NCBI RefSeq assembly: GCF_004114935.1 | Contig: NZ_CP022221.1 | Location: 2,811,001-2,875,000 of the forward strand | Length of the DNA stretch: 64,000 nt | Source: Bradyrhizobium zhanjiangense | GTDB taxonomy: Bacteria; Pseudomonadota; Alphaproteobacteria; Rhizobiales; Xanthobacteraceae | Direction of reading: 5' to 3' | Translations under genes and position numbers: made by a program | The notes under the pieces: generated by a model | Seen by the model: only the letters and a program-made list of their open reading frames with translations | Database searches by the model: none | Told to the model about the DNA's origin: nothing | Part shown: piece after piece, positions 26,835 to 53,242 of the stretch | Numbering within the stretch: the first letter of the stretch is position 1 | Layout of the letters: every line of letters begins with the position of its first letter

Positions 26835-26850
26835 TGGTACAACACTTGCT
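26835..26850 (+). promoter_or_regulatory. RpoN (-24/-12) promoter of fixA
   Basis: TGGTAC-N5-TTGCT fits the sigma-54 consensus with GG-N10-GC spacing. The predicted start near 26861 gives a 28-nt leader to the fixA GTG. A partial NifA upstream site (TGT-N10-ACT, 26723-26738) lies about 105 bp upstream; only five of the six fixed bases match. Confidence 0.82.
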
Positions 26851-27731: not shown

Positions 27732-28871
27732 TCTGGAGAGTCGGGCAACGACAGATCGAAACGGTCTAAGGATGTACCAACGCCAAGAGGCACCCGTGTC
27801 AAGTGAGCGCGGAAGATGTAGCTAGGCATCTCAGCCCGCAACCAGCGCATTCTGGGTGCATGGCGTTCTTTATTGCTCGCGATCACCTGGGACCGCATGT
27901 TCCGTAGACCACGTTATGGCCTCGATCGATGTCCGGAGTTGGACGCGATTGTCAGGCGGATCGACAAAGGGCTGCGCATGCGTCCAGATCCCACTGCATG
28001 GTCGTGTTCGACGGCCTTGAGGCGACTGTTTCGCGCGTAGTTGTCACGAGCGAAGACGGATTACGTCCGCGACCCGGGATCACCATACTAGCGCCCGAAC
28101 GCCCAAAGCACTGTCGCGCTGTTGAGGGCGGGAAGCCGACCTATGTGGCACCTTTGGACCAATCTCCGCGATTCAACAGCCTATACCCATTGTGAGTGGC
28201 GGCTGGCTCTTCGCCCGTTTGGTTTTTGACGGCCGTGCAAGCGCTGTCAGGTTCAATACTCTTTCAATGAGAGATCGGTCGCTAGCGTTTTGTCAGTGTA
28301 TTCAGAATCTGTGGAGTGAGTGCACGAGTTGGCACGTTGATTGCTGTAAGCATGCAAGAAGACGGCGGGGGGGTGCTCGCGAACGCGAAACCTAGCGGCG
28401 GTCTCTTCGAGAAGCTCGTGCCGGCCAGCAGCCGGCATTTCGCGCAGCTTGCGGCCGAAGGCCGCAAGAGCCAGGTAGATGCGGATAGTCCTTGTAATGC
28501 CGTATGAAGCTCATAGCGGTTCGACCGACTGGCAGGAGCAGAAACCGAGAGGGCCTGCGCGGCGCAAATCTCACCTTGGCTCTGCAAGCGAATGCTGGCC
28601 GTGCCGGGAATTCGCGGCATCGGACTTTTCGTGGACCGGAATCCGTCTGGATCGCCGCCGCTCAGCTGATGAACGCGTTCCCTTCCATGCGCGCGAGCAG
28701 GACTGAGCATGCCGCTGTCTGCTACCGCGAAGGTGGCCACCAAGAATTTCGCCTGGATGGTAAACGCGATCACAAGCCCATCGAAACCAACGAATTCGCG
28801 GTAGCTAATAGTTGGCCCCGATACGAAGTTGCTCCGTCAAGTACCGTTCTCTCCTCATCGCCAGGGGTTAA
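27732..28871. other. Gap of 1.1 kb between fixA and the oxygenase cassette
   Basis: Several frames of 60-160 codons overlap on both strands (28282-28773 minus, 28504-28875 plus, 27929-28195 plus). None has a family motif or good start. A TGGCCC ... TTGCT pair at 28813-28832 resembles a -24/-12 element, but its spacing is 5 bp too long. Confidence 0.4.
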
Positions 28872-30074
28872 ATGACATCTCAAGCGCCTCGATTTACGCC
28901 CGGTCAGCCTCCGCAGATATGCTGCGAGTATTTGACTGAGCAAGCGCGAGCCCTGTTCGGCCCGCATCCGTTCGCTGCGGAAATGTCCCAGCACCAGGTC
29001 GCTAGCCTGCTGCCTGAATATCTGGCCATGTCACAGGCGTTCCCGTACCTGCAGGCGGGGTCGCAAAAGGATCTCATATTCGATGCAATGAATCACAATC
29101 GAGATCTTGCGAGGGACGTTGAACTAACCAGCGTGGTCGCAAATTTCATCTGTTGGGATGAGACGGGTGGTTATGGCCAAATTCTCCGGGGCGGAAAGGC
29201 GGCGCTACCCGATATACTGGTGACTGAAAACTTCCACTCGAACCTGTTTAGAAAGGATGCGTCGCAACTACTCGGCAACGCAATACGGCCCAACTACAGC
29301 GCCACGACTAAGCGGTACCTGCATTCTCTCTATGCCGGATTGTCATCGAAAGATCCCTTAGTGCGTTGTGCCTACATGGTCGCTTTTGAGCTACACGCTG
29401 CGGACATGATCCAGTCGCTATGGACCACTCTGGTCAAAACCTTTAAGGCGCGGCCTGACGATCTTGAGTACTTCCGTAGCCATGTCGGCGGAGAAGATCC
29501 CGCGGAGAAGTATCACGGAGAAATGACAAGCCGGCTGATTGGCGACCTTGTCCCGGCTGACCGTAATGATCGCTTTTTGGATGAATTCGATCGAGCCTAT
29601 CGGCTCAACTTACAGTGGTGCCGCGATCTGCTCCGAATTGTCTCACTTCATGATAATCAGTCGGAGGTCGAACACCATGGCCGTTGTCATTGTGGTTCTG
29701 TTAAGTTCTACGTCCAAGCGCCGCGAGAGCTCTTTGCAGTTCGATGCAATTGCTCAATCTGTCAAATGTCTGGATTTCTGCACTTGCTCGTACCTGGCAA
29801 AAAGCTTGGTATTGAGTGCGGCGAAGAATTCCTCACGGCGTACCAGTTCAACAAGAACATCGCTCGGCACACGTTTTGCCGGGTGTGTGGCGTAAAGCCA
29901 TTCTATAGGCCGCGGTCGAACCCGTCCGGATTCAGCGTAAATATTCGATGCCTGGATAACAGGACCATCGAACGCATAACAATAAGCGAGTTCGATGGCG
30001 AGCATTGGGACCAAGCATTCCGCTCGATGCACCAGGACCTGGAGTCCTGCGTCGAAGATAAAACCCTGGAGTGA
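28872..30074 (+). CDS. Haem-oxygenase-like (putative diiron) domain fused to a GFA/Mss4-like zinc domain
   Basis: A 400-residue two-domain protein. Residues 15-255 are all-helical and read as a haem-oxygenase-like fold of the diiron oxidase/oxygenase (HDO) type: candidate metal ligands are Glu97 (CWDETGGYG), His122, Glu173 (AFELHAADM), His204 (FRSHVGGEDP) and His215 (EKYHGEM). Residues 265-370 form a GFA (glutathione-dependent formaldehyde-activating-like) domain with Cys272/274 (RCHCGSV), Cys292/294/297 (RCNCSIC) and Cys336/339 (FCRVCG). GFA members bind zinc and often handle small adducts. AGGGG precedes the ATG. Six bp downstream is a 2-oxoglutarate oxygenase gene, so both probably act on one small molecule. 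The domain calls are from motif reading; ligand residues are candidates. Confidence 0.7.
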   Translation: MTSQAPRFTPGQPPQICCEYLTEQARALFGPHPFAAEMSQHQVASLLPEYLAMSQAFPYLQAGSQKDLIFDAMNHNRDLARDVELTSVVANFICWDETGGYGQILRGGKAALPDILVTENFHSNLFRKDASQLLGNAIRPNYSATTKRYLHSLYAGLSSKDPLVRCAYMVAFELHAADMIQSLWTTLVKTFKARPDDLEYFRSHVGGEDPAEKYHGEMTSRLIGDLVPADRNDRFLDEFDRAYRLNLQWCRDLLRIVSLHDNQSEVEHHGRCHCGSVKFYVQAPRELFAVRCNCSICQMSGFLHLLVPGKKLGIECGEEFLTAYQFNKNIARHTFCRVCGVKPFYRPRSNPSGFSVNIRCLDNRTIERITISEFDGEHWDQAFRSMHQDLESCVEDKTLE

Positions 30075-30080
30075 ACTCGA

Positions 30081-30758
30081 ATGGCGCGCGCAATGAATCA
30101 TAAACCCCGTCTGCTTTCAGAAGAGGCTTTGACAAAATACCGCATAGAGCTGTTGGTGAAGGGGACGGTCGTGATTGGCCCCCAGATATTGTTCACTCAG
30201 GATGAATTGGCCAAGATCGATCAGCTGCAGGCTGAGATTCCCGAAGAAGAAGTGAGGGAGGGAGATGCCGGCGACTCGCACAATGTTTTCGTCAAACGCG
30301 TGAGGATAGACCCGCCCGGCCGCGCGCCTAGCAACGCGAGTGGTGCAGCTCCAGGGCAGATCATGGAACTACTTGAAAGGAAAGACCGCAGCTTCGCGCT
30401 AAGAAAGATTTTGGGAGCCACGTCAGATTACGTGATTCGCCGATGCCAAATGCATCGGATGCCCCCTGGTTCCTTTGTTGGCATTCATCTGGATGCTGCG
30501 AGCGATCCGGATTTCGAGTACTCGGTGATTGTGCAGCTGGCGAGGGACTTCGAGGGCGGTGAGTTCGTGGTATATCCAAGCGGGTACGAACACCAAGTAT
30601 ACCGACCGCCCTTTGGCGCCGTGCTTGTCACCACATGTAGGGTCCAGCATGAGGTGAAGCCTGTGCTGACCGGCGAGCGACGATCGCTGGTCTACTTCTG
30701 TTCAAAACGCAGCGGCGCGAACCGCCGGATCATCGAAAGTTCTACCGCGGGCTTATGA
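30081..30758 (+). CDS. 2-oxoglutarate/Fe(II)-dependent oxygenase (prolyl-hydroxylase-like)
   Basis: A 225-residue protein whose C-terminal half is a double-stranded beta-helix oxygenase: iron ligands His136 and Asp138 (VGIHLDAASD) and His190 (CRVQHEVKP), the 2-oxoglutarate-binding Arg200/201 (GERRSLVYF), with the usual FEGGEFVVYPSG strand pair between them. This pattern is that of the P4H-like / 2OG-FeII_Oxy family (HxD...H...R). The N-terminal 100 residues are a helical extension. GGAG lies about 9 nt upstream, and only 6 bp separate it from the HDO-GFA gene, so they form an operon. The substrate is unknown; hydroxylation of a peptide or small acid is plausible. Confidence 0.85.
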   Translation: MARAMNHKPRLLSEEALTKYRIELLVKGTVVIGPQILFTQDELAKIDQLQAEIPEEEVREGDAGDSHNVFVKRVRIDPPGRAPSNASGAAPGQIMELLERKDRSFALRKILGATSDYVIRRCQMHRMPPGSFVGIHLDAASDPDFEYSVIVQLARDFEGGEFVVYPSGYEHQVYRPPFGAVLVTTCRVQHEVKPVLTGERRSLVYFCSKRSGANRRIIESSTAGL

Positions 30759-35833: not shown

Positions 35834-37150
35834 TCAAGCCATTCTCAGTAGGCGGTTCTGCAGATCGCGGGCCGCGGGCCTGTCGCGCGCAATCACAAGG
35901 CACTCCACCGTGCCAGCCTCTTCGTCCGCGGCAAGCGGGATCACGCCCTCCTTACGTGTGCGGTCGAATAGAAATCCTTCCTTGCCGAAACGATCATGCG
36001 CTGTTTGGAGGGACCGTGATCGAACATTTCTCACGGATAAAATAACGTTGCAACCGGAATAGTCGAAGCCCAGCAGCCGGACGGCAATACTGTGTAACAC
36101 CGAGCCGCCACCCCAGCGGCCGTTCGCTTCATTAAACAGCAACCGTCCGCTATTCGCGAAAATGGCGTCAATGTTGATCATTCCGCGATATCCCAGGTCT
36201 CGCGCAAGCGCCACAAATCGGTAGGCGTGCGCCTGGGCGGTCAACCATTGCTCGTTCCTCAGGTCACTTGGAAGCTCAAGTCCTGTCCAGATCAGAGCTC
36301 GTTCGGATCGATCTGTGCTTTTACGCACACGTATGTTTCCACTGTTGATGAAAACGATTGAACCATCATCCTCAATTTCATACTCGAGATAGAACAAAGA
36401 CCTGGCCAGGTGGTACGACTCCACGACCAGCGTCTTACACGACGCTGTTGTCATCTCAGACCAAAGCGCGTCAGGATCCAACGACGGCCATGAAATTCGC
36501 CGGGTATCTCTTGCCCCAGGTAGCGGATCGCTTTCATTGCCGGTCAGGATGACATTTCCGACTCCACCGGCTCCATTGTCCAGCTTTACAATGACTCTGC
36601 CGGTCTCGGATCTGAGGGAAGTGACCGCTCTGAATAGTTCGTTAGAGTCCGTCGTGACAGATCCATTGGGCAGCGGAAGTGCGACGCTTGTCGCCAATTG
36701 ACGGAAGTGGCTCTTGCGGTTCAACAGATCAGGCCCTCGCTGCAGAGCGAAGTCGTCGCCTGTCTTCGGTATGCCCAGCATGGCCGCCAGGCGTGCGACG
36801 CCTTCAGTGGAGTAGCAGGGATACAATCGCCAAGTTGATTTCTGACGAATATGTCTGTTGATCCGCTCAACGACAGTCTTGGACAGCAATGTGCAGTCGT
36901 CAAGGACCGGCGATTGGCGGCCGCCTTCAGGTACGAGCAGAAAAAGACTCGATGCGTCGAAATCGAGCGTCGCGCCAATGAAGGATAGCAGATCCGCCGG
37001 GATGACTACCGGGGAGACTATTAGGTCGCCTTGCTGGGCAAACCACGCCGAACGGTATGCCGAGTTGGCGGCCAGCGAAAGTTGAGCTGGTGTCAGATCG
37101 GCGCCCGACATTTGAGCCGTACCGGCATTCATGATCAAGATCCGCGGCAT
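35834..37150 (-). CDS. ATP-grasp ligase with pre-ATP-grasp domain
   Basis: A 438-residue protein resembling the 'pre-ATP-grasp plus ATP-grasp' peptide ligases (PGM1-like) that join amino or other acids to peptides or small molecules. The N-terminus is a Rossmann-like pre-ATP-grasp domain (MPRILIMNAGTAQMSGADLT). The ATP-grasp part includes RKSHFRQLA, GRVIVKLDNGAGGVGNVIL (glycine-rich ATP loop, about residues 190-208), FYLEYEIEDDGSIVFINSGN and GMINIDAIFANSGRLLFNEANGR (split; metal-binding Asp/Glu/Asn, about 340-362). GGAGGTC precedes the ATG. It is the most downstream gene of a minus-strand series with an acyl-CoA ligase 165 bp before it. The product is unknown. Confidence 0.7.
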   Translation of the reverse strand: MPRILIMNAGTAQMSGADLTPAQLSLAANSAYRSAWFAQQGDLIVSPVVIPADLLSFIGATLDFDASSLFLLVPEGGRQSPVLDDCTLLSKTVVERINRHIRQKSTWRLYPCYSTEGVARLAAMLGIPKTGDDFALQRGPDLLNRKSHFRQLATSVALPLPNGSVTTDSNELFRAVTSLRSETGRVIVKLDNGAGGVGNVILTGNESDPLPGARDTRRISWPSLDPDALWSEMTTASCKTLVVESYHLARSLFYLEYEIEDDGSIVFINSGNIRVRKSTDRSERALIWTGLELPSDLRNEQWLTAQAHAYRFVALARDLGYRGMINIDAIFANSGRLLFNEANGRWGGGSVLHSIAVRLLGFDYSGCNVILSVRNVRSRSLQTAHDRFGKEGFLFDRTRKEGVIPLAADEEAGTVECLVIARDRPAARDLQNRLLRMA

Positions 37151-37314
37151 CCGCGACCTCCGGGCATCTGGACGCGATCAGACAGGGATCGTCATGCCAA
37201 CAATGTTGAACTTGCTGCGCCGTGGTGAGGCACTGAGCGAAGGTTGATTTTGCGCCGTCTCGATGTCACCTGCGATGTACCGGGAGAGCACGGCCCGCCT
37301 TCAATCTGCCGATC

Positions 37315-38859
37315 TCAATTGATAGCTCCTTTCGGGCTGATCGCGTGGCGATCCTTCAGCAAAAAATGCTGGATCTTGCCCAACGCGGTTTTCGGTAGTT
37401 CTTGTGTGAAAATGATTTCGCGCGGCACCTTAAAGCGGGCGAGCTGTGACTGGACATGTGCCGTCAGCGCTTCCGCCTCGACCCGGGCACCCGGTCGCTT
37501 GATCACATAAGCGACCGGTACTTCTCCCCAGTGCGTATCGGGTCGACCGACCACGGCGCATTCCGCGACATCCGGATGGTCCGTAAGCACACGCTCTACT
37601 TCTGCCGGATAGATATTCTCTCCGCCCGAAATGATCAGATTGTTCTTGCGGTCGTGGACCCAAATATATCCATCTGCGTCGCAGCGGCCAATGTCCCCAG
37701 TGCGATACCAACCATTGCTCAGAGCCTCACGCGTTGCCTGCTGATTGCCCCAATATCCGCAGAAAACGTTGGGCCCACGGACTGCGATTTCGCCTGGGAT
37801 ACCGGGCGGCAACTTGCTGCCCGAATCATCGATGATCGCCGCTTCGCAGCAGAGACCTGCCAAGCCGCTTGAGCCCTCAGGCACGAGATTTCCGCCGAGC
37901 TTCGTATACACAGCGATCGGGCAGGTCTCCGTCGAACCGTAAACCTGCAGGACTGGAACGCCGCGCGCGACAAAGCGCTCGACAAGGCGCTGAGGCACCA
38001 TCGTCGATCCGGTACAGATTGCTCTGAGCGAGGATAGGTCGGTACTTTCCCATCGACCATTGCTGGCCAGGGCCTGCATCATGGCTGGCACCAGGGCTGC
38101 CAGGCTCGGCCGGTCACGCTCGAACGCATCAAGCATGGTCTCCGCCCCAAAGCGGGTGTGGATACTCACCGTCGCGCCGTGATGCAAACTCGGCGTCGTC
38201 TGGATGTTCAAGCCACCGACGTGGAAGAACGGCAAAACAGCCAGCGTGTGATCGGCCGAGGTGAGGTCATGCATGTGCTGACTCATGATGCTGTTCCACA
38301 GCAACGCTTCCTGACGCAGCACGGCGCCTTTCGGTCGCCCTGTGGTGCCCGAAGTATAGACGATCAGAAGCGGGCAAGACGGCTCCGCGCGAGGATTGCG
38401 TCCGTCACCACAGTCTCCGTCCAGGAGATCGTCCAACTTGCAGCCGCCGAGAGGCGTAAAGTCCAACCCGACAAGAGAGGCATGGGGCACTTGCTTCGTC
38501 AGGACAGGCAAAGCTGCGCCGAAGCACTGCTCAAGAACGAGCACTTTTGCCCCGGAGTCCGACAAAATGAAAAGGTGCTCGGTGGCCGCAAGACGCCAAT
38601 TCAATGGTACGAGGATTGCGCCGAGTCTCGCGCACGCGTAGAGCAGCGCCAGATAATCAGGCCTGTTGAGGCTGAGGATCGCGATCCGGTCTCCCCTTTG
38701 GACGCCGAGCTGGCTCTTGAAGGCGCGGGCGATCCGCTCGATCCGTCGATTGAGGCTGGCGTAGCTGAGACTCTGCCCTTCGAAATGGATCGCGGTTTTG
38801 CCGGGAGTATACGCAGCGTTTCGCTCGATCAGTGTGCAGAGATCCAACTTGTTATCCAT
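37315..38859 (-). CDS. AMP-forming acyl-CoA ligase/synthetase
   Basis: A 514-residue ANL-superfamily enzyme that activates a carboxylic acid as acyl-AMP, then transfers it to CoA. The AMP-binding P-loop is YTSGTTGRPKGA (168-179). Later motifs are QVYGSTETCP (A5), NGWYRTGDIG (A7), IISGGENIYPAEVE (A8) and PKTALGKIQH, with the catalytic Lys near the C-terminus. Length and motifs match medium/long-chain or aryl acid CoA ligases. Substrate cannot be read off. Together with the carboxylase and acyl-CoA dehydrogenase genes further along it suggests degradation or modification of a branched or unsaturated acid (inference). A MerR-type promoter copy lies about 920 bp upstream. Confidence 0.9.
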   Translation of the reverse strand: MDNKLDLCTLIERNAAYTPGKTAIHFEGQSLSYASLNRRIERIARAFKSQLGVQRGDRIAILSLNRPDYLALLYACARLGAILVPLNWRLAATEHLFILSDSGAKVLVLEQCFGAALPVLTKQVPHASLVGLDFTPLGGCKLDDLLDGDCGDGRNPRAEPSCPLLIVYTSGTTGRPKGAVLRQEALLWNSIMSQHMHDLTSADHTLAVLPFFHVGGLNIQTTPSLHHGATVSIHTRFGAETMLDAFERDRPSLAALVPAMMQALASNGRWESTDLSSLRAICTGSTMVPQRLVERFVARGVPVLQVYGSTETCPIAVYTKLGGNLVPEGSSGLAGLCCEAAIIDDSGSKLPPGIPGEIAVRGPNVFCGYWGNQQATREALSNGWYRTGDIGRCDADGYIWVHDRKNNLIISGGENIYPAEVERVLTDHPDVAECAVVGRPDTHWGEVPVAYVIKRPGARVEAEALTAHVQSQLARFKVPREIIFTQELPKTALGKIQHFLLKDRHAISPKGAIN

Positions 38860-39006
38860 GCGCCTCAGGCCCGCACATTACGTTTATCCCAATGCGCTTC
38901 AGCCGCAACCCGGAATTGCTTGGCGAGGCTCCGATCACATGCTTCGGTTGGCCTTTGTACAGGCTACGATCACACAGCCTAGGCCGGACCCGGTTCTTGA
39001 TGGATG

Positions 39007-39387
39007 TCATGGGTTGCGAACAATGGATATTACTTGAGGGATCTCGGGCGATTGATCACTCACTCTGTTCTGCTCGGCGGCGGTCGTGTGCATCTGTCGG
39101 TAGTGATAGGCACACCACGAAGACAGTTTCTTGCCGCGTCTTTGATATACAGGCTCGCCGCACATATAGGCCGCCCTGGCATCTCCATCTTTGAAGCCGA
39201 TGATGCAACGGCATTGGCCTTCAATATGGTCGATTAACAGGACCTTCTTGACGTCGTCGGGCTCTTTCAACTTGCTGCTCCTGAATGCCAAGCAATATCT
39301 TCGGTGCCGGGTGGTTGCGCGGAGCGGCACTTGCAGCTCAGGCTCTTTGAAAACCTGCGCAGGCCCGCCGTCTGCCTTGCCAGCCAA
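39007..39387 (-). CDS. Small Cys/His protein, GcrA-C-terminus-like (uncertain)
   Basis: The frame encodes 126 residues with the coherent stretch KKVLLIDHIEGQCRCIIGFK, DGDARAAYMCGEPVYQRRGK and SSWCAYHYRQMH. The arrangement Cys...Cys-Gly...Cys-xx-His-xx(x) resembles the C-terminal knuckle of GcrA-type cell-cycle regulators, which read CRWPxGDP...FCGxxx...YCxxHxR. The GcrA DNA-binding N-terminus is missing, so it could be a fragment or a separate small family. No convincing ribosome binding site. Medium-low confidence. Confidence 0.45.
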   Translation of the reverse strand: MAGKADGGPAQVFKEPELQVPLRATTRHRRYCLAFRSSKLKEPDDVKKVLLIDHIEGQCRCIIGFKDGDARAAYMCGEPVYQRRGKKLSSWCAYHYRQMHTTAAEQNRVSDQSPEIPQVISIVRNP

Positions 39388-39779
39388 GGGAAAGCAGTTT
39401 CAACAGAGCGGAAAGCCGGTTCGGCCAACTGATTTTGGCGCGGTGTCGCGCCAGAGGAGGGGTTTGGTTCAGATTCAGGAAGCAGCGCCCCTCCGCAGGG
39501 GCTTCGGATGGAGGTCTACGTCCATCAATTCTGACCTCAACGCCTGTCTGGTGGCCCGGCCCAGGACAGCCACATAGTCTCGGTTCCAGAATGCCGAACC
39601 ATTCAAACCTACGTGCGAGCGGTAGCTCCGCAACCGGCACTCGCTGCATAGCCCTTCCGACCGACCCAGCATCGGGGATGAGGATCATGACCGACCATCG
39701 GGGCTTGGATCTGACCAGCTGAGACATTCTCAATCCTTCACAATCCCGGCGGCAGACCGAGATAGGTGCTAACCTCAAG
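39388..39779. other. Region between MerR-type promoter copy 4 and the Cys/His ORF
   Basis: A minus-strand frame (39338-39778) contains MSQLVRSKPRWSVMILIPDA at the same distance from the promoter as in merR (MSKATPRRRRWRIGELAEAT). The resemblance is weak; it might be another decayed merR copy, or chance. Confidence 0.25.
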
Positions 39780-39810
39780 ACCGTACAACTTAACGTTACG
39801 TGAGATTCAA
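39780..39810 (-). promoter_or_regulatory. MerR-type promoter/operator, copy 4
   Basis: On the minus strand TTGAAT, a 19-bp spacer with the perfect core ACGTAACGT, and TACGGT. It points leftwards towards the Cys/His ORF and the acyl-CoA ligase / ATP-grasp genes. Confidence 0.65.
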
Positions 39811-40232
39811 GCCCTTTTTGGCAGCCTGTGACAACATGGCCAAGCTCTCAGGCTGCCGGAAAAGGGCCGCCGGCCGGTGTGCTGTCGCAAGCATTCAGCG
39901 CTGCGATGTGCGCCAAGAAAGTTCGTCTCGAGATCAGGGTCGCCTGCCGATGAGCCCATTGCCGGAAACGCTCGCCCTTCGACCAGGCGCTCGCTGCCCT
40001 TGCAGCCGATTGCGCGCCTGAAGTCCGCTGCGCCGTCATTGAATAGCTCAGTCACTTCCATCTGGCGCCGACCGTGCGGTGCCAAATGCGGCCGACCGAT
40101 AGTTTTCGATGAGGTCGGCCTGATAGGGCACCAGCCTATAGCCCTTGCGGCGTTCGCGAAACGATCCCGCGAATGTGCTGGCGGGTGTCATTCAACGTAC
40201 GTCGCGGTCACTGACTTCGCCTGGTGCTGGGA
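39811..40232. other. No supported gene
   Basis: Overlapping opposing frames (39807-40085 minus, 39877-40248 plus) without domains. No element recognised. Confidence 0.35.
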
Positions 40233-41357
40233 TTATCGCAGTGTCTGATAGAGGCGGTACAGCAGCCGCGCGCGAGGTCCAATCGACGAGATGTAGAGTT
40301 GCTCATAATGGGTATGCGCGCCCTTGCCATCGACGCCAAGGCCGTCAAGGGTCGCGGTATGGGGCGCGGTGAAATTGCTATCGGAGCCGCCGCCGCTGAA
40401 CGCGTCGAGCAGCTCGAATCCAAGCTCGGCAGCAAGCTCTTTGGCGTGAGCGTAAAGCGCGGCGCCGGCGCTGGTCTTCTCATAAGGCGGACGGTTCAAT
40501 TCGCCTGATACCTTCACCTTGACGCCCTCGGTGCGCGAGCTGATGCCCAGAATCTTCGGCACCAGCTCGTCGGCATGGGCCATGGTCGGGACGCGCATGT
40601 CGACTTGTGCATAGGCCAGTTCCGCGATCACGTTTGGCCTTGTGCCGCCGCGGACGACGCCGACATTGACGGTGATACCGCGCGTGAGATCGTTCATCGC
40701 TTCCAGCGTCTGGATCACATGGCCGAGTTCCCGAATCGCGCTGCGGCCGTCCTCGGGGCGCGTGCCGGCATGCGCGGGCGCGCCCTTGATGAATACCTCG
40801 AAGCGCGCAACGCCCTTGCGCCCGGTGATGACCTTGCCGCCGTCGCGCGCCGGCTCGGTCACGAGCACGTATTTGGCCTTGCGGCCTTCGGCCTCGATCA
40901 GCGCACGCGAGGTTGGGCTGCCAATCTCTTCGTCCGAGACGTAGAGATGGGTGATGCCGAGCGGCGGGCGTGCGTCATCGGCGCAGATCTGCCGGAATGC
41001 GTGATAGGCTAGGTAGGCGCCGCCCTTCATGTCGTAGATGCCGGGGCCGAACGCACTGTCGCCGTCGATCTTGAATGGTAGCCGTTCAATGGATCCCATC
41101 GGATGGACGGTGTCGAGATGGCTCAAGATTAGAATGCCCGGTACGCCCTGCCCCCAAGAAGAGCGGGTAACCAAATGATCGCCGCAGCCATCATGCCCCG
41201 CAACGCGCTCGACGCTGGCGGGCAGGTCGCGATAGCCTGCTGCGACGACATCAGCCAGTTTGTTGATCTGATCCGGCCGCTCCGTCGGAGATTCGATCAT
41301 GACCCAGCGGCGAATGCCCTCGAGAATCGGGGCGATTTCGAACGCGTTGCTGGACAT
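40233..41357 (-). CDS. M20-family zinc metallopeptidase (carboxypeptidase G2/ArgE-DapE type)
   Basis: A 374-residue enzyme from ATG 41357 (MSSNAFEIAPILEGIRRWVM); the open frame extends 20 codons further without family similarity. Zinc ligands and catalytic residues appear in order: LSHLDTVHPMG (HxD), YDMKGG (bridging Asp), VSDEEIGS (catalytic Glu and ligand), TEP, and the C-terminal GAHTHYEQLY (His). The central dimerisation domain carries GAPAHAGTRPEDGRSA. This fits glutamate carboxypeptidase-like hydrolases that cleave C-terminal amino acids or acyl-amino-acid conjugates. The gene is strongly GC3-rich compared with its neighbours, suggesting a different origin. With an ATP-grasp ligase nearby, amide bond making and breaking may be paired (inference). 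Confidence 0.9.
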   Translation of the reverse strand: MSSNAFEIAPILEGIRRWVMIESPTERPDQINKLADVVAAGYRDLPASVERVAGHDGCGDHLVTRSSWGQGVPGILILSHLDTVHPMGSIERLPFKIDGDSAFGPGIYDMKGGAYLAYHAFRQICADDARPPLGITHLYVSDEEIGSPTSRALIEAEGRKAKYVLVTEPARDGGKVITGRKGVARFEVFIKGAPAHAGTRPEDGRSAIRELGHVIQTLEAMNDLTRGITVNVGVVRGGTRPNVIAELAYAQVDMRVPTMAHADELVPKILGISSRTEGVKVKVSGELNRPPYEKTSAGAALYAHAKELAAELGFELLDAFSGGGSDSNFTAPHTATLDGLGVDGKGAHTHYEQLYISSIGPRARLLYRLYQTLR

Positions 41358-41982
41358 AGTTGTCTGACGCCTTTGAATTCGATTGTCATCGTTCTGCAAG
41401 ATCACGACATCAACCATGTACTCACATCAGAATCGAAGCCGAACATCTAGAGAGTCGCCAGCCGTTGTGACGCAGGCGTGCCCCTGGATCCGATCTTGCT
41501 GCGGCAACGATGTACGCGCCTGTCGATCTTAACTTGAGCTACCAAAGCTGGTAGTTTTCGACTGGATTATGCGGCCCCAAGAAGAAGGCCGTTCTGGATT
41601 GTTCGTTCTGGTGAGCTGTGATTATTCCAATCAGGACCTTCCAGCGACATCCGCGCAAATCGCATTGTCCTGACCAGGTGACCCCCACGCGTCTCAACGC
41701 GGGAGGTCGCCGGCCAGCGCCAGCATAGTACGAGCGGCGAAGCGCCGAAATCGCCGGAGCTGAGGTGACCTCTCAATACGAGCTCTAATCTGTGAAACAG
41801 TTGCAGCCCGGTCGATTGTCCGATGACTGTCGCTGGAAGCGACCAGAGATTAGAGTTGTGGTCGCGATCCGACCAGCTGGGCTGGAACCTCGCTGGCGCC
41901 GCCGCGCGGAGGGGATGATGCCGATTGCGGTATCGGCGCGCGCCTACCAGAGTTTCTCCGCATGTAGACGGCATCGGCGCAC
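41358..41982. other. Gap, nothing recognised
   Basis: One 135-codon minus-strand frame (41567-41974) has no domain or start signal. No element seen. Confidence 0.35.
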
Positions 41983-42168
41983 CTAAAGCGCCTTTAGGAG
42001 AATACGTTTTTTTGCCTCGATGAGATGCTTATCCAGCGTCGCGTGCAGCGCACCCCGCAACTCCGGCGGGATCGAGCTATCTGTATCGATCAATTCCCGG
42101 AACTTCCGAATGAGGTGCTCTAACGCTGCAATAGATCCTTGTGTTTCAATCTTCAGCCAGGACATCAT
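41983..42168 (-). CDS. Small helical hypothetical protein (61 aa)
   Basis: The ATG at 42168 has AAAGGAGAG 5 nt upstream, so this start is much better than the longer open frame to 42318. The product reads MMSWLKIETQGSIAALEHLI, RKFRELIDTDSSIPPELRGA, then LDKHLIEAKKRILLKAL: two amphipathic helices, basic C-terminus. No family recognised. It lies between the M20 peptidase and the TrpD-like gene on the same strand and may belong to that transcription unit. Confidence 0.6.
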   Translation of the reverse strand: MMSWLKIETQGSIAALEHLIRKFRELIDTDSSIPPELRGALHATLDKHLIEAKKRILLKAL

Positions 42169-42424
42169 CGATTCTCTCCTTTGCGCGCAGCGCGCTTCGT
42201 CGTGGGCCCTCACCGCGGCAATCCTGGCTGCAACAGGCTCTCGTCGATAAAAAAGTTGGCGCTCGGGCCGCGTGCTCAGCGCGAATTTCTTTGGTGAGGG
42301 CGAGCGCAGGCGGCGCACGCTCCTTGAAATCCCGCAGAAGTGATGCGCATTCGCGCCTGAAATACTTTCGCGCTCGTGAGCAGCAGTCTTGGTCGGAATA
42401 CTGGAACATCGGCCAGCTCGGCCG

Positions 42425-43438
42425 TCACGCGTTCGAAACCGCGATCAGGCGCTTCAGTCGAGCGGCTGCGGCGCCGCCATCAAGTGATTCTTGTCCAAGT
42501 GCTACGCCTTCCTGCAGGGTCGAGGCCCGGCCGGCCACGACCAATGCCGCCGCCGCGTTCAAAAGCGCGGCGTCGCGAAATCGACCTGGTTCGCCATTAA
42601 GCACATTTTGCAGAGCAACGGCATTAGCCTCGGCATCGCTGCTCTCCAACGCGTCGTTGCGGCAGCGGGGGAGCCCGGCTTCTTCCGGCGTCACTTCGAA
42701 GGTGCGGACTATACCCGCCTCAAGCGCAGCAACAAAGGTTGGACCGGTAAGGGTTATTTCGTCGAGCCCGTCCGAGCCATGAACAACCCATACCGACTCG
42801 GCACCAAGGTTCTTCAAGACGTACGCCAGAGGCTGGACCCATTCGGGAGAGAATACCCCAACGATCTGCCGCTTGACCCTGGCCGGATTGGACAGAGGCT
42901 CGATTAGATTAAAGATCGTGTGGGTTCCAAGTGCGGTCCGGATCTGGCCGACGCGCTGCATCGCCGGATAATGGGCTGACGCAAACATGAAGCCGATGTT
43001 GGCTTCCTGTACACAACGTGCAATAGCTTCAGGCTTGAGATCGACCTTCACGCCGAGGCGCGCCAACACGTCTGCGGCGCTTGAACCCGAAGACGCAGCG
43101 CGGTTGGCATGCTTGGCGACAGGAATGCCGACCCCGGCGACGATGAAGGAAGCACACGTCGACACGTTGACCGAATATATAGGGGTGTCGCTCGTGCCAG
43201 CGATACCGACGGGGTCGCATGCCGCCTCCACGCGCGGCATTCTATTCCGCATCGCGGAGGCGGCGCCGGTGACTTCTTCGACCGTCTCGCCCCGGACCCG
43301 CATCCCCATCAACAAGCCACCGATTTGCGAGGGAGTCGCGTGCCCCGACATCATGCTGTCGAAGGCTGACGTAGTTTCCTCGCGCGTCAGAGTGGCGCCG
43401 GTGGCAACTTTGCCGATGATTGATCTAAGCTCTTCCAT
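42425..43438 (-). CDS. Anthranilate phosphoribosyltransferase (TrpD) paralogue with altered PRPP loop
   Basis: A 337-residue protein colinear with TrpD. N-terminal helices ([20 protein letters not shown]) and the core [54 protein letters not shown] and [12 protein letters not shown] are well conserved. But the PRPP/pyrophosphate loop GTGGDG of true TrpD is GTSDTP (81-86), and KHGNRALSS is KHANRAASS (109-117). These changes hit the catalytic loop, so the enzyme probably does not make phosphoribosyl anthranilate, and it is not with trp genes. It begins just downstream of a MerR-type promoter. Function unknown; a phosphoribosyltransferase-fold enzyme on another substrate is likely. Confidence 0.85.
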
Positions 43439-43524
43439 CGAACTTTACACGTTCCTTGTCCAAACCCTCGATCTCTTCCGCGACGCTTGAGGCGGCAGTC
43501 GGTTGAGTGTGGGCGCCCTTGGCG

Positions 43525-43555
43525 AGGCTACAACCTGACGTTACGTGAGGGTCAA
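43525..43555 (-). promoter_or_regulatory. MerR-type promoter/operator, copy 5
   Basis: On the minus strand TTGACC, a 19-bp spacer with ACGTAACGT, and TAGCCT. The dyad here is the most complete (CCTSACGTWACGTSAGG form). It sits 87 bp ahead of the TrpD-like start codon, an ideal promoter position. Confidence 0.75.
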
Positions 43556-43939
43556 GCTCTCCTTTTCGTGGTGCCATCGAGAGCAGATCGTCGGCCAGTT
43601 AGAACGCTGTAGTTTCTTGATGCCAGGACCGATGGCACTGTCTCGCGCCCGCCTGCCGCGTCCGCAGCGGCCTCTTTACCGCGCTGTTCCGGCCGGATCA
43701 CCGCATCGTTCAAAGCCTTTTAGCTTTCGGGCGCCGTCGTCGTGGAGCATTGAAGCGGCTTCCTCTACCTGCTTCGCCAGTATTGGTGCTGGGGAGATGG
43801 AGCCCGATCTCAGCTGGGCTCTACAAATAACCCCACCTGATTGTAAATGAAGGTGCGCAGCACAGCCTTCATAGAGCGATCGACGCGTTCCGTTGATCCG
43901 CCCGCATGAGGCGGTAAGCCACCCGTGTTCGGTCCTGCC
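43556..43939. other. Gap between TrpD-like promoter and carboxylase operon end
   Basis: Nothing supported. A plus-strand frame (43545-43850) is Arg/Ser-rich without motif. Confidence 0.35.
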
Positions 43940-45547
43940 TTACAGTCGGAATACGCCGTACTGCGGCGCATCGATCGGCGCATTGAGCGAAGCGCTCAAT
44001 GCGATTGCGAGGGCAGTTCTGGTATCGACAGGATCAAGAATGCCGTCGTCCCAGATTTCCGAGGTCGCATAATAGGCACTTGACCGCTCGCGATATTCTT
44101 CAAGAATTGGTGCTCGAATGGCTGCCAATTCCTGCTCCGAGAGGCGCCCTCCGGCGCGAGCCAATTGTCTCGCCTTGACGTGGGTGAGAACTCCGGCGGC
44201 CTGCTCGGCGCCCATCGCAGATATCTGAGAATTCGGCCAGCTGAACACGAATCGAGGATCAAACGCGCGTCCCGACATAGCGTAAGTTCCTGCGCCGTGC
44301 GAGCTATTGCAAATGATCGTAAACTTCGGCACGGACGCTCCGGACACCGCCATGATCAGCTTGGCGCCGTCCTTGGTGATCCCACGCCGTTCATATTCGC
44401 GGCCAACCATAAAGCCAGTTACGTTCTGCAGGAAGAGCAGGGGCGTCCGGTTCTTGTCGCACAGTTGAATGAAATGAGCCCCCTTTTGCGCGCTGTCGCC
44501 GAACAGCACGCCATTATTGGCAATGATCCCGATTTGATATCCATGAAGCCGCGCAAAGCCGCACACGAGTGATGTCGCATAGCGCGGCTGGTATTCTTGA
44601 AATCGGCTGCCATCGACCAGACGAGCGATGATCTCTCGCATGTCGAACTGCGCTCGCGCGTCCTTTGGAATGATACCGTAGAGTTCGGACGCACAATAGG
44701 CGGGCGGCTCGGGGGCCACTCGATCGATCGAGGTCTTCGCCGGTTGGTGGAAGCGAGCAACGACGTCGCGCGCAATCGCAATCGCATGGATTTCAGAGCT
44801 TGCGAAGTAATCACAGGTGCCCGACACGCTGGTATGCATGATGGCGCCGCCAAGTTCGTCGGCGGACACTTGTTCGCCGGTGGCAGCCTTCACGACCGGA
44901 GGGCCGCCGAGAAAAATCGCTCCATTGCCTTCGACGATAATGTTGTATTCACTAAGCGCAGGGACGTAGGCCCCTGCCGCGGTGCAGTGGCCCATGACGA
45001 TGGCGACCTGCGGCACACCCATCTTCGAGAGAACGGATTGATTGCGGAGAATTCGACCGGCATGGTAGCGATCAGCAAAGAATTCCGCCTGCAAAGGCAG
45101 GAATCCGCCGGCGCAGTCGCACATGTGAACCACCGGCAGACGGTTTTCGATGGCTATATCCAGTGTCCGCACGATCTTCTTGACCGAGAGTGGATACCAT
45201 GCGCCGCTCTTCACGCTGGCATCGTCGGCGTGAACAATAACCTCTCGCCCCGCCACAATGCCGATGCCGACAACCTGGGCGGCGCCGGGCACCTCGCCGT
45301 CGTATGCCTTGTTAGCCGCCAGCGTCGAAAGTTCTAGGAACGGAGTTTCCGGATCGAGCAAGGCCGCGAGCCGCTCACGAACAAACAGTTTATTCTGCCG
45401 ACGCAGCCGCTCGAAGTCCCGCTCAGGCCTGTGGAAGCGGGCAACGCGTTGGCGCTCCTTCAATTCGGCGGCAAGTTGTCTGTTGTGCAGGTCGTTGCGA
45501 CGAAATTCCTGCGAGTTCACGTTCGCCACGGAACCGATCCGCTGCAT
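43940..45547 (-). CDS. Acyl-CoA carboxylase, carboxyltransferase subunit (MccB-like)
   Basis: A 535-residue biotin-dependent carboxyltransferase of the methylcrotonoyl/geranyl-CoA carboxylase beta class. The start ATG 45547 (MQRIGSVANVNSQEFRRNDL) lies 1 bp after the stop of the biotin-carrier gene. N- and C-lobe crotonase folds include LLDPETPFLELSTLAANKAY, GIGIVAGREVIVHADDASVK, GHCTAAGAYVPALSE, FLGGPPVVKAATGEQVSADE, FLQNVTGFMVGREYE and SSHGAGTYAMSGRAFDP. 'KGAHFIQLC' and 'GFMVG' are typical of MCC rather than propionyl-CoA carboxylase. Forms a complex with the two preceding gene products. Confidence 0.9.
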   Translation of the reverse strand: MQRIGSVANVNSQEFRRNDLHNRQLAAELKERQRVARFHRPERDFERLRRQNKLFVRERLAALLDPETPFLELSTLAANKAYDGEVPGAAQVVGIGIVAGREVIVHADDASVKSGAWYPLSVKKIVRTLDIAIENRLPVVHMCDCAGGFLPLQAEFFADRYHAGRILRNQSVLSKMGVPQVAIVMGHCTAAGAYVPALSEYNIIVEGNGAIFLGGPPVVKAATGEQVSADELGGAIMHTSVSGTCDYFASSEIHAIAIARDVVARFHQPAKTSIDRVAPEPPAYCASELYGIIPKDARAQFDMREIIARLVDGSRFQEYQPRYATSLVCGFARLHGYQIGIIANNGVLFGDSAQKGAHFIQLCDKNRTPLLFLQNVTGFMVGREYERRGITKDGAKLIMAVSGASVPKFTIICNSSHGAGTYAMSGRAFDPRFVFSWPNSQISAMGAEQAAGVLTHVKARQLARAGGRLSEQELAAIRAPILEEYRERSSAYYATSEIWDDGILDPVDTRTALAIALSASLNAPIDAPQYGVFRL

Positions 45548-45548
45548 T

Positions 45549-46100
45549 TCAGCGCCCTTCTTTAGAGAGCGTGACCAGCACAGCGTCGTGCTCGAAGCTC
45601 TCACCTTCCTTGACGTGAATTCGATGGACGATGCCATCCTGTGGTGAGCGTATGATCGTTTCCAGCTTCATGCTTTCAATCAGCATCAGTGCCATTCCCG
45701 CCGAGACCGATTGACCGGACGAAACTGTGATCGCAACAACAAAGCCAGGCATCGGCGCCCGGGCCACCAGAGCGTGAGTCGCGTTATTGCCGGATGCGCA
45801 CGCTCGCAACGGGTCATTGTAGCGCAAAATGCGCGTCCTGCCGCGGATGTGGAGGTGAATTAGCTCCCCATCGATGGCAAACCTGACCGGTTCGCTCTGG
45901 CCCGCAATGGTCAAGATGCCGCTACTGTCATTGCAATGGGTGAACGCGACGGGGGTAATCACCTGGTCTCGGAGATGGAGCCGGTAGTCTTGCTGGTTGG
46001 GTGAAAGCCACAATTCATGATATACGCCGTCGACATCGAATGAGTGATACACGTCAATTTCTCCAACTACCGAGCGCTGCGTGAAGCTCGGGCACGGCAT
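45549..46100 (-). CDS. Biotin carboxyl carrier / BT-domain subunit
   Basis: A 183-residue protein equivalent to the C-terminal third of MCC alpha: a beta-rich BT-like domain (residues 10-105) followed by a biotinyl domain, VARAPMPGFVVAITVSSGQS ... MLIESMKLETIIRSP, with the biotinylation Lys in ESMKLE (AMKM is commoner). In most MCCs this is fused to biotin carboxylase; here it is separate. The ATG at 46100 overlaps the upstream biotin carboxylase gene by 47 bp, so this looks like gene fission with coupled translation. Confidence 0.85.
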   Translation of the reverse strand: MPCPSFTQRSVVGEIDVYHSFDVDGVYHELWLSPNQQDYRLHLRDQVITPVAFTHCNDSSGILTIAGQSEPVRFAIDGELIHLHIRGRTRILRYNDPLRACASGNNATHALVARAPMPGFVVAITVSSGQSVSAGMALMLIESMKLETIIRSPQDGIVHRIHVKEGESFEHDAVLVTLSKEGR

Positions 46101-47523
46101 CGGCCGACTCGCGGACTGGTCTTGTCAGGAGAGCCGCAGATGCCAGGAACGCAGACATTTCGGCAGCAAAGTTGCCGGCTGCAAGATGTGGATTTTCTTC
46201 TAGGTATCCCGTATGGAACTGACCGCCAAGAAATGCCTCGTCGCAAAGAATCCGGGCGAGCAAGCTCGCGTTGGTCTCGCACCCAAGTAGAACCAGTTCG
46301 CGAACGGCGCGATGGGCTTTCAGAGCAGCCTCTATGCGGTTCGGTGAATGCACGATGATCTTGGCGAGCATGGGATCGAATGCCGCCGAGATGTGCTGGC
46401 CTTGCATGATGCCGCTGTCGATTCGTACGCCATCCGGATACTCGAGAAGAAGTACTTTGCCGGTGGTCGGGACGTATCCGCGTTCGGGAGCCTCCGCGCA
46501 AAGCCTGAGCTCGATTGCATGCCCATTTGAAACAATGTCGGACTGCGAAAGTGCAAGTTTTCGGCCCGCTGCCGCATAGACTTGTTCGGCGATCAGATCG
46601 ACGCCGGTGATCATCTCGGTCACCGGATGTTCGACCTGAAGGCGTGTATTCATTTCCAGAAAGTAGAACTCTCCGCTGCTGAAAATGAACTCGACCGTTC
46701 CTGCATTCTGATAGTTCGCTGCACGGGCGATGCCGACGGCGGTTTCGCAAATCCGGGTCCGCAATTCTGGTGATAGCGCTGGCGAGGGCGTTTCCTCGAT
46801 GATCTTCTGGAAACGGCGCTGCACCGAACATTCGCGCTCGAAGAGATGGACCAGGTTACCGAAGGAGTCACCGAGCACCTGTACTTCAATATGTCGCGGG
46901 CTTTCGATATATCGTTCAACATAAAGTCGGCCATCTCCAAAGTAGCGACGCGCTTCACTGCTCGCCTGCTCAATGGCTGCCTCCAACGTAGCGAGGTCGC
47001 GTACAATCCGCATTCCCTTGCCGCCACCGCCACCTGATGGCTTCACGAGCAAAGGAACTCCAATAGCCCGCGCTCTCGAAACGAATGTGGCCGGATCATC
47101 TTCCTCGATGGCGCAGGGTGCGACCGGAAAGCCGTTGCCTTGAACGAAATTACGGGCGCGGATCTTATCGCCCATTAGCTCGATAGTTTCTGGAGCGGGT
47201 CCGATGAATACAATACCGGCCTTTATCACTCGACTGGCGAATTCCGCATTCTCGGAAAGCATTCCATAACCCGGATGTATCGCGCCGGCGTTCGCCTTGT
47301 GGGCGGCAGCGATGATCTGCTGGATATCCAGATAGCTTGCGATCGGCGTGCAGCCGCTGATCGGAATAGCCAGATCGGCCATTGAGACGGCCGGGGTTCT
47401 CGCGTCAACCTCATGGTAGGCAATTGCAGAACGAAGCCCAAGCTTGTTCAAGGTTTTGATGATACGTGCGGCTATCTCACCCCTGTTGGCGATCAGAACG
47501 GTATCGAAGGGTAATTTATGCAT
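46054..47523 (-). CDS. Biotin carboxylase subunit of acyl-CoA carboxylase
   Basis: A 489-residue ATP-grasp biotin carboxylase. It begins with the N-terminal fold (FDTVLIANRGEIAARIIKTL), then VHPGYGMLSENAEFA-like IHPGYG, the ATP loop VKPSGGGGGKGMRIVRD (about 163-179), FGNLVHLFERECSVQRRFQK, EEAPS-like ETPSPALSPE, GTVEFIFSSGEFYFLEMNTR and LQVEHPVTEMITGVDLI, and the closing LCAEAPERGYVPTTGKVLLL. It carboxylates biotin on the carrier protein with bicarbonate and ATP. First gene of the three-gene carboxylase operon. No close promoter is evident; a MerR-type copy is 1.25 kb upstream with a secreted-protein gene between. Confidence 0.92.
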   Translation of the reverse strand: MHKLPFDTVLIANRGEIAARIIKTLNKLGLRSAIAYHEVDARTPAVSMADLAIPISGCTPIASYLDIQQIIAAAHKANAGAIHPGYGMLSENAEFASRVIKAGIVFIGPAPETIELMGDKIRARNFVQGNGFPVAPCAIEEDDPATFVSRARAIGVPLLVKPSGGGGGKGMRIVRDLATLEAAIEQASSEARRYFGDGRLYVERYIESPRHIEVQVLGDSFGNLVHLFERECSVQRRFQKIIEETPSPALSPELRTRICETAVGIARAANYQNAGTVEFIFSSGEFYFLEMNTRLQVEHPVTEMITGVDLIAEQVYAAAGRKLALSQSDIVSNGHAIELRLCAEAPERGYVPTTGKVLLLEYPDGVRIDSGIMQGQHISAAFDPMLAKIIVHSPNRIEAALKAHRAVRELVLLGCETNASLLARILCDEAFLGGQFHTGYLEENPHLAAGNFAAEMSAFLASAALLTRPVRESADAVPELHAALGSWRN

Positions 47524-52423: not shown

Positions 52424-53242
52424 ATGTATAATCGAGTTGGTGGTCAATCCACACGCCCTAATCAAACTAACGAACCGAGTGAGCCGGCAGACAGCAGCGA
52501 ATTTGCGCAAACACTGATGGATCTCGCTCGACGGGAGAGCCCGTCACCTGGGGAATTGCCCGACAAAATGGGGCTCTGCTGCAGCAAGCCACATACCTCC
52601 GATGCAAACATTTACAGTTCAAGCACCTCAGATTCCAGCATAACCTCTCTGTCCTCCAGCTCAAGTCCATCCTCTCCAGCGAGGCCTATCCCTCCTCTGT
52701 TCGGGTACAGGACTGCTGAATTATCCGAGGCCAATGTCAACGGCATCTGCGTTGGATTAGCAGCGGAGTGGATCCGGATCCGCAGTCTTCCAAGCAGTCC
52801 GTCATCCCGGATGAGGGCGCTGCGCCCGGGTACTGAAACTCACAGCTCAGCCGCGGTGCTGCAGCAGCGGTATGAAGACGTCAAGACGGCGGAAGGTTCT
52901 CACAATCTTCAGGCAAGAAGCACAATGTTACGCGAAGCCGGCCTAGAGCCGTCCGCCGAAGAAACGCGATATGAGTTTGGTACATCTTCGCGCCAGATCG
53001 TGAACGAGGTCACGCACGATCCATCGATCTATTTGGTCAGCTTGCGTTTCGCGGAAGGTGGCTCGCACATGCTTGCAACGTCGACATCGAATGGAATGAC
53101 GACCCTCTTTGATCCTAATTATGGAGAGTTTACTGTTCGGCCAGATCAGATGGGTGATTTGTTCGAAAGTCTTGCCGACCGTTACAGCAAGCCGCCGAAC
53201 GAACTTGATATATCGACGGTCGTCACACAAAGGATCACGTGA
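52424..53242 (+). CDS. nopT: NopT, type III secreted C58 cysteine protease effector
   Basis: A 272-residue effector of the YopT/AvrPphB family. Catalytic triad: Cys109 (VNGICVGLAAEW), His215 (GGSHMLA) and Asp230 (LFDPNYGEF). The autoprocessing site DKM is at 47-49; cleavage exposes Gly50 with Cys52/53 (GLCCSKP), giving N-myristoylation and S-palmitoylation that target the plasma membrane of plant cells, as shown for NopT of NGR234. The Ser-rich N-terminus (residues 10-90) carries the secretion signal. A tts box precedes it. All catalytic and processing residues are present, so the effector is probably active and may influence host range. Confidence 0.93.
   Translation: MYNRVGGQSTRPNQTNEPSEPADSSEFAQTLMDLARRESPSPGELPDKMGLCCSKPHTSDANIYSSSTSDSSITSLSSSSSPSSPARPIPPLFGYRTAELSEANVNGICVGLAAEWIRIRSLPSSPSSRMRALRPGTETHSSAAVLQQRYEDVKTAEGSHNLQARSTMLREAGLEPSAEETRYEFGTSSRQIVNEVTHDPSIYLVSLRFAEGGSHMLATSTSNGMTTLFDPNYGEFTVRPDQMGDLFESLADRYSKPPNELDISTVVTQRIT

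Follow-up and report, generated by a model that had tools for sequence, protein, structure and literature searches.

An HDO-type–GFA fusion and a 2-oxoglutarate oxygenase behind a sigma-54 promoter in Bradyrhizobium, with a linked peptide ligase: a probable route to an oxidised amino acid or short peptide

The window analysed here, a stretch of 64,000 nucleotides from Bradyrhizobium zhanjiangense (contig NZ_CP022221.1, positions 2,811,001 to 2,875,000), carries a pair of genes for a fusion of a haem-oxygenase-like diiron oxidase (HDO)-type domain with a GFA zinc domain and for a 2-oxoglutarate (2OG)/Fe(II) oxygenase, with a PGM1-type ATP-grasp peptide ligase gene nearby. We propose that these genes form a small biosynthetic set, the first two members of which are under NifA/sigma-54 control, and that the set yields an oxidised amino acid or a short peptide in bacteroids (probability about 0.58). 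A small modified peptide is favoured as the product because a PGM1-type ligase is linked to the pair and because pathways that combine an HDO with ATP-grasp ligases are already described. The genome to which the window belongs is a single contig of 9.34 Mb, and the features that carry the argument are as follows.

28245..28260, plus strand: site TGT-N10-ACT, which resembles a NifA upstream activator and differs in one base from TGT-N10-ACA
28330..28345, plus strand: sigma-54 (-24/-12) promoter TGGCACG-N4-TTGCT, 12/12 consensus positions
28346..28871, plus strand: long 5' leader of about 525 nt, in which no conserved small open reading frame (ORF) was seen
28872..30074, plus strand: fusion gene, HDO-type domain plus GFA domain, 400 aa
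28872..29639, plus strand: HDO-type domain, residues 1-256 (PF14518 match below cut-off; relatives)
29160..29516, plus strand: predicted diiron ligands Glu97, His122, Glu173, His204, Glu212 and His215 (alignments)
29673..29963, plus strand: GFA zinc domain, residues 268-364 (Pfam, 3fac, cysteine motifs)
30081..30758, plus strand: 2-oxoglutarate/Fe(II) oxygenase, 225 aa (Pfam, solved relative, alignment)
35834..37150, minus strand: PGM1-type ATP-grasp peptide ligase, 438 aa (Pfam, PDB relatives, linkage)

Promoter and NifA control

The ORFs of the pair (28872-30074 and 30081-30758) are both on the plus strand and are separated by 6 bp, and an ORF check returned the coordinates and strand given in the initial annotation. 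That annotation had also placed the pair beside nifA and fixA, and both genes were found upstream, together with a fixR-like short-chain dehydrogenase/reductase gene; the names fixR, nifA and fixA are partly our assumption and partly those of the initial annotation. Its description of the gene set was right as far as it went; it omitted the ligase and the sigma-54 promoter, and it also missed the recurrence of HDO, GFA and ligase in Legionella and in an Oligoflexia bin.

The sigma-54 promoter lies 542 nt 5' of the fusion gene. Its 12/12 match is unique in the window on both strands, and no such site appeared in 10 mononucleotide shuffles; as a rough yardstick, the same scan gave 10/12 at 26835, before fixA. 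The activator-like site is 85 nt upstream of the -24 box and ends in ACT rather than ACA; by these sites the pair is a candidate member of a NifA-sigma-54 regulon. Further sigma-54-like sites scoring 11/12 occur at 50194 on the minus strand and at 32723 on the plus strand. Among 48 related loci, a 12/12 site is present within 1.5 kb upstream of the fusion in 21 and a site of at least 11/12 in 30, and in 23 the best sigma-54-like site is preceded, at 78-113 nt, by an exact TGT-N10-ACA, a count for which no chance expectation was computed. The promoter site is 439-659 nt upstream of the fusion in 30 aligned relatives, and conservation is 0.90 at the promoter, compared with 0.57-0.84 over the leader. 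L032-L039, L041-L046, L049, L051 and L052 show no 12/12 site, so control of these loci may differ from that in the window.

Expression in USDA 110 points in the same direction. In soybean bacteroids of a nifA mutant, blr2041 and blr2042 have log2 values of -4.2 and -4.8, decreases of about 18- and 28-fold (PMC4926349, Table 3, which appears to give no nifH value for them). A sequence match identifies blr2042 as the 2OG protein. The initial annotation had considered two oxygen-dependent iron enzymes beside the nitrogen fixation regulator to be unexpected in a microaerobic setting. This is weakened by the same table, which includes nrgC, cyp112, cyp114, blr2131 and bll2125 as other strongly NifA-dependent genes of oxygenase type, so oxygenases under NifA are not exceptional. 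In Paraburkholderia phymatum, Bphy_7724 and Bphy_7726 of the symbiotic plasmid pBPHY02, which encode an ATP-grasp protein and a protein with a haem-oxygenase domain, are increased in a nifA mutant (PMC8305402); regulated in the reverse sense, they may form a further HDO/ATP-grasp set of rhizobia.

The peptide ligase and its linkage to the pair

The 438-aa protein is by sequence a ligase of the PGM1 type. It matches PF18604 (E 4e-20, 72.6 bits) and PF18105 (E 3e-7, 30.3 bits), the PreATP-grasp and PGM1_C domains, both above the cut-off. The closest solved relatives are 8ynd, an 'ATP-grasp peptide ligase' (E 1.3e-65), for which a literature search returned no source paper, and PGM1 itself (3wvq, E 5.2e-34).

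Linkage was counted in one sample of 146 Bradyrhizobium genomes, with NifA accepted at E 1e-150 or better and distances taken between midpoints. The HDO was found in 49 genomes, the ligase in 50 and NifA in 98, and every one of the 49 HDO genomes has both the ligase and NifA. The sole genome with the ligase and without the HDO, G694, retains the GFA part and the 2OG gene as well. HDO and ligase share a contig in 42/49 genomes and are less than 10 kb apart in 38; for HDO and NifA the corresponding counts are 40/49 and 32. The linkage of HDO and ligase is also kept where the fetched flank contains no nifA (L032, L033, L036, L037, L040-L042, L045, L049 and L051). At the level of 51 Bradyrhizobium loci (the window, L005-L052, L054 and L055), the ligase is present in 39, with at least 90% of its length in 38; the copy of L013 is cut by the end of the locus. 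In L005 and L006, which we take to be contigs of genomes G771 and G764 on account of concordant lengths and positions, the ligase is 11-12 kb away. Eight of the loci that lack it end at a contig edge (L009, L010, L034, L035, L038, L039, L043 and L044).

One further gene next to the ligase was considered as an accessory.

37315..38859, minus strand: AMP-binding acyl-CoA-ligase-like protein, possible accessory gene and uncertain member

The ORF comparison detected this gene in 21 loci, and 17 of these keep at least 90% of its length in a single frame; only fragments of it occur in others, for example L007, L008, L011 and L012. It was rejected as a core member because it is absent or fragmentary in many loci where the fusion, the 2OG gene and the ligase persist. 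More widely, 37315-47523 on the minus strand contains genes for the AMP-binding ligase, an M20 peptidase, a phosphoribosyl-transferase-like protein, a carboxyltransferase and a biotin carboxylase, which are patchy in relatives. The M20 peptidase and phosphoribosyl-transferase-like genes (40233-43438) were not accepted as members for that reason, nor were the carboxylase genes beyond them, which have no match in the relatives' flanks.

Domains of the fusion and of the 2OG oxygenase

The family of residues 1-256 of the fusion also has standalone members, about 250 aa long and 43-54% identical, in Nostoc, Sorangium, Archangium, Legionella and other bacteria, some of them of other phyla. Two alignments with some members in common, A1 (38 sequences) and A3 (37), were used to look for a metal site. 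Glu97, His122, Glu173, His204, Glu212 and His215 do not vary in either, and the domain therefore has, as judged from sequence, the 3 His/3 carboxylate ligand set of the HDO superfamily; the alternative that the N-terminal domain has no metal site finds no support in these predicted ligands. An alignment of 13 of the 37 family members with segments of three solved HDOs, HrmI, SznF and BesC, placed five of the predicted ligands on residues of matching type in all three enzymes, in the motifs DE-x-G ... H and H ... D/E-x2-H. Glu173 has a counterpart of matching type in BesC only, not in HrmI or SznF, and the last motif, H-x7-E-x2-H, is four residues longer than in these three enzymes. Other support for Glu173 as a ligand comes from its spacing of 31 residues to His204; the Glu143-His172 spacing of MboA is 29 residues (PMC13185094). 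Haem_oxygenas_2 (PF14518) was matched by 20/37 members of the family in a scan at E <= 1, with a best E of 2.5e-6. These observations fit a divergent HDO branch, predicted from the alignments; the domain is HDO-type, not a proven HDO.

The GFA domain is clearer. PF04828 matches residues 268-364 with E 5.5e-12 (46.2 bits, cut-off 24.3), the zinc cysteine motifs CxC, CxCxxC and CxxC are present in the alignment, and a solved relative is 3fac (E 1e-16); the zinc GFA domain of the initial annotation was thereby upheld. A metagenome protein, P0065, unites the C-terminal part of the HDO domain, a GFA domain and a complete 2OG domain (43% over 209 residues) in a single chain, which supports a shared function of the three parts. 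Another HDO-GFA fusion, P0047, and a 2OG relative, P0186, both list a longest contig of 5539 and two contigs; they are probably neighbours, also outside Bradyrhizobium.

The 225-aa protein matches 2OG-FeII_Oxy_3 (PF13640, E 7.5e-10) above the cut-off. His136, Asp138, His190 and Arg200, which correspond to the iron triad and the 2OG-binding Arg, are constant in 31 aligned sequences, in agreement with the earlier assignment as a 2OG/Fe(II) oxygenase. The nearest solved structure is 6n1f (E 1.9e-56).

Conservation and loss in Bradyrhizobium

A gene was counted as intact if at least 90% of its length was in one open frame. By this measure the fusion is intact in 48/51 loci, the exceptions being L052, where it is interrupted, and L054 and L055, which have the GFA part only; the 2OG gene is intact in 50/51, the exception being L027. 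The two genes are therefore kept together, as a neighbourhood survey had been expected to reveal if they belong to one system. In comparisons with eight chosen relatives, the fusion has dN/dS values of 0.12-0.25, the 2OG gene of 0.10-0.25 and the ligase of 0.16-0.23.

The set is decaying in some Bradyrhizobium lineages (L143, which is G766; L144, which is G721; L052; L054 and L055; and L027). G766 has a fusion gene broken between HDO and GFA, a split 2OG gene and a ligase gene with four stops; G721 retains the fusion and the 2OG gene, but its ligase is fragmented. Since 49 of the 98 NifA-positive genomes have no HDO, the gene set is not required for nitrogen fixation everywhere.

Related gene sets in other bacteria

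Standalone HDOs of this family occur in clusters of Legionella gresilensis (L053), L. drozanskii (L056) and an Oligoflexia bin (L057). Each cluster contains the HDO, a fatty-acid-desaturase-like protein, a PGM1-like ligase with 24-28% identity to that of the window, a protein of 437-447 aa that belongs to no known family, a Cys/Met pyridoxal phosphate (PLP) enzyme and a standalone GFA protein. The desaturase-like protein resembles GntB, an arginine hydroxylase, weakly (37.5 bits, cut-off 380). Among 112 genomes of the family of L. gresilensis, the HDO was found in four, the new ones being G608 and G634. G634 hardly differs from L053. The cluster of G608 comprises the PLP, 441-aa-type, HDO, desaturase, ligase, methyltransferase and GFA genes, but the SDR and PF10014 genes that L053 carries have no match there. 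A rhizobitoxine-like pathway, prompted by the desaturase and PLP enzyme of Legionella, was dropped, as neither has a relative in the Bradyrhizobium flanks and a literature search gave no link.

On plasmids, a ligase, a GFA protein and one or more 2OG oxygenases occur together in Rhizobium leguminosarum WSM1689 (with a desaturase), Rhodococcus AQ5-07 and Kocuria TGY1120_3; four of 20 ligase records and three of four 2OG records were compared for neighbourhood. The available part of the paper on the Kocuria genome does not mention the cluster. The GFA proteins of L120, L121, L122 and L057, which come from the Rhizobium, Rhodococcus and Kocuria plasmids and the Oligoflexia bin, adjoin PGM1-type ligases and are 53-64% identical to one another; their identity to the GFA domain of Bradyrhizobium is 42-48%. 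This GFA branch seems to be tied to peptide pathways. As GFA stands beside ligases where no HDO was found in the fetched stretch, it is probably not only an HDO helper or formaldehyde sink. A Paraburkholderia plasmid has a different HDO together with a ligase and a 2OG gene. In G094, a 2OG relative (42%) adjoins a distant relative (24%) of the Legionella 441-aa protein; a 414-aa neighbour in Massilia showed no similarity to the 455-aa protein of G094.

In 398 genomes of the phylum, the 2OG gene was found in five (E 1e-30) and the ligase in three (E 1e-15). The A1 alignment matched 149 of them (E 1e-10); among the matches listed, only three also covered the HDO part and the rest were GFA, in a search that scored at most four candidates per genome and may have missed standalone HDOs. 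The A3 alignment matched 2/144 genomes of the phylum of the Oligoflexia bin, one of them over a piece of only 54 positions, and a tblastn search of plasmid collections with a standalone HDO gave no match. The parts thus occur in differing sets, all of which have the look of amino-acid or peptide chemistry.

Elsewhere in the window, 52424-53242 on the plus strand encodes a Peptidase_C58 domain protein (E 2.3e-40), which we take to be a secreted protease of the YopT/NopT type and which is likely a type III effector of the symbiosis island.

Proposed function and alternative explanations

The scheme draws on two enzymes. MboA, an HDO, desaturates a tripeptide that is built by the ATP-grasp ligases MboC and MboD (PMC13185094), and BesC, an HDO that fragments 4-chloro-lysine, releases formaldehyde (PMC13108848). 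We infer the catalytic steps, their order and the product from these. With O2 and its predicted diiron site, the HDO domain would desaturate a side chain of an amino acid or peptide, or cleave it, and the fused GFA domain would handle a one-carbon or aldehyde group that is freed or formed en route, or might shape the product itself. The 2OG oxygenase would hydroxylate the same molecule, and the ligase would couple this unusual building block with a second amino acid or a peptide. The product may be a peptide antimetabolite or a compound acting on the plant. A more specific version, in which bacteroids need active NifA to make a small peptide with an unusual, unsaturated or carbon-cleaved residue, formaldehyde freed by the HDO is caught by the fused GFA domain, and the peptide targets rival microbes or the plant inside the nodule, is put forward tentatively and is on balance doubtful. 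The initial annotation had suggested a compact tailoring pathway for a signal or metallophore-like molecule; tailoring is indeed the likeliest function, and nothing pointed to a metallophore or a signal.

Several results weigh against this proposal. Concerning the fusion, its PF14518 match (residues 119-245, E 2.9e-5, 24.4 bits) is below the curated cut-off of 28.9 bits, the A3 family profile had no match in PDB up to E 10, and hhalign against a single clear Paraburkholderia HDO sequence gave a probability of 0.5 and no similarity. We use the label HDO-type because of these results, and of the putative diiron oxygenase domain in the initial annotation the complete predicted ligand set stands, while the family match and profile comparisons do not sustain it. 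That blr2041 is the fusion we infer from its number, which precedes blr2042. Concerning the ligase, it is on the strand opposite to the pair and about 5 kb away in the window; 12/51 loci show none, with L046 and L052 having none within the 8-kb downstream flank; and HDO and ligase are on separate contigs in 7/49 genomes and 134 kb apart in G766. Its strand has no sigma-54-like site of at least 9/12 at 37000-40300, and the available part of PMC4926349 contains no tag with the prefix bll204, the USDA 110 tag of the ligase not being established. NifA control of the ligase is therefore unproven, and the enzyme may be made at other times too. HDO was not found in the fetched stretches of the Rhizobium, Rhodococcus and Kocuria plasmids, and the desaturase and PLP enzyme of Legionella have no relative in the Bradyrhizobium flanks.

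Some of these points would be accommodated if the fusion and the 2OG oxygenase were a complete NifA-controlled tailoring unit for another nodule molecule and the ligase a mere neighbour on the symbiosis island. The sigma-54 promoter precedes only the pair, the NifA table names blr2041 and blr2042 and, in the part available, no bll204-prefixed tag (PMC4926349), and the ligase, on the other strand, lies at a distance of over 10 kb in 4 of the 42 same-contig genomes and on another contig in seven. However, HDO and ligase co-occur in 49/49 genomes, their linkage is retained in loci without nifA in the flank, the same ligase family stands beside HDO and GFA in distant bacteria, and the genes decay jointly in G766; we consider an unlinked ligase unlikely, though it is the least improbable of the competing explanations. 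A detoxification role, in which GFA takes up formaldehyde while the two oxygenases demethylate or degrade a plant or bacterial compound in the nodule, would suit the GFA family name, the fusion to an oxygenase-type domain and the formaldehyde release by BesC (PMC13108848). Yet one would not expect a degradation unit to include a peptide ligase, and GFA adjoins PGM1-type ligases where HDO is not found. The action of GFA on formaldehyde is moreover disputed, and we regard detoxification as improbable.

The remaining two accounts concern protein or peptide substrates. The 2OG protein shows weak similarity to 4iw3 (E 0.011), presumably a prolyl hydroxylase, and to 3dkq, a PKHD-type hydroxylase (E 0.024), and might, with or without the HDO, sense oxygen or 2-oxoglutarate in bacteroids by hydroxylating a protein; this we hold to be very unlikely. 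A ribosomal precursor peptide of about 51 aa, encoded in the leader just 3' of the promoter and modified by these enzymes, was suggested by the window and L005, in each of which a 51-aa ORF begins directly after the promoter. The frame is altered or lost in L006-L012 and other loci listed, and conservation of the leader is about 0.75, compared with about 0.9 at the gene start. As the frame is not conserved among these loci, the precursor was rejected and is scarcely credible. The small biosynthetic set with its linked ligase is therefore the reading that we prefer.

Significance

If the proposal is true, bacteroids of many Bradyrhizobium species turn on a dedicated small-molecule pathway along with nitrogenase, and blr2041 and blr2042 of USDA 110, listed as 'unknown' and 'hypothetical' protein, acquire a role that can be tested. 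A genomic hint at a role of GFA proteins in natural-product pathways comes from the HDO-GFA fusion and from the repeated pairing of GFA with a peptide ligase. In the more specific version given above, the pathway would be a peptide pathway dedicated to symbiosis and the fusion, to our knowledge, the first HDO with a built-in one-carbon partner. With three core enzymes, the set is small enough for reconstitution in the test tube, as was mangotoxin.

Comparison with known systems

Mangotoxin is produced by Pseudomonas syringae. Its mboABCDEF genes, as described in the available part of PMC13185094, share with the present set an HDO and ATP-grasp amino-acid ligases that make a small peptide without a non-ribosomal peptide synthetase or the ribosome, and MboA has the 3 His/3 carboxylate diiron site that is predicted here. 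Unlike the present set, mangotoxin has a dedicated reductase, MboB (none was recognised here among the ORFs examined, no dedicated search being made), and two ligases rather than one. The same text names no GFA or 2OG enzyme among MboA-E and mentions no NifA control, and the family profile here matched no solved HDO. According to its authors, an HDO and an ATP-grasp ligase occur together in at least 25 unique gene clusters (PMC13185094), among which the Bradyrhizobium set may be. The kind of system is thus already known, which qualifies the view of the initial annotation that no such system was described; for the HDO-GFA fusion itself, or a NifA-controlled pathway based on one, no paper was found in the open-licence PubMed Central papers.

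The besABCDE pathway for beta-ethynylserine brings an HDO, 2OG enzymes and an ATP-grasp ligase together, and the formaldehyde released by BesC would suit a GFA partner; we know of no GFA fusion there. In contrast to the Legionella and Oligoflexia clusters, which have a Cys/Met PLP gene, the Bradyrhizobium flanks have none, and in this they differ from besABCDE as well. For the ligase, PGM1 of pheganomycin (3wvq) and 8ynd are clear relatives with the PreATP-grasp and PGM1_C domains; the pheganomycin pathway is not known to involve an HDO, and in this it differs from the set described here. The GFA family (PF04828; 3fac) is likewise a clear match with its cysteine motifs retained, and whether its enzymes truly act on formaldehyde is disputed; the difference is that the domain is here joined to an HDO-type domain and lies within a peptide-ligase gene set.

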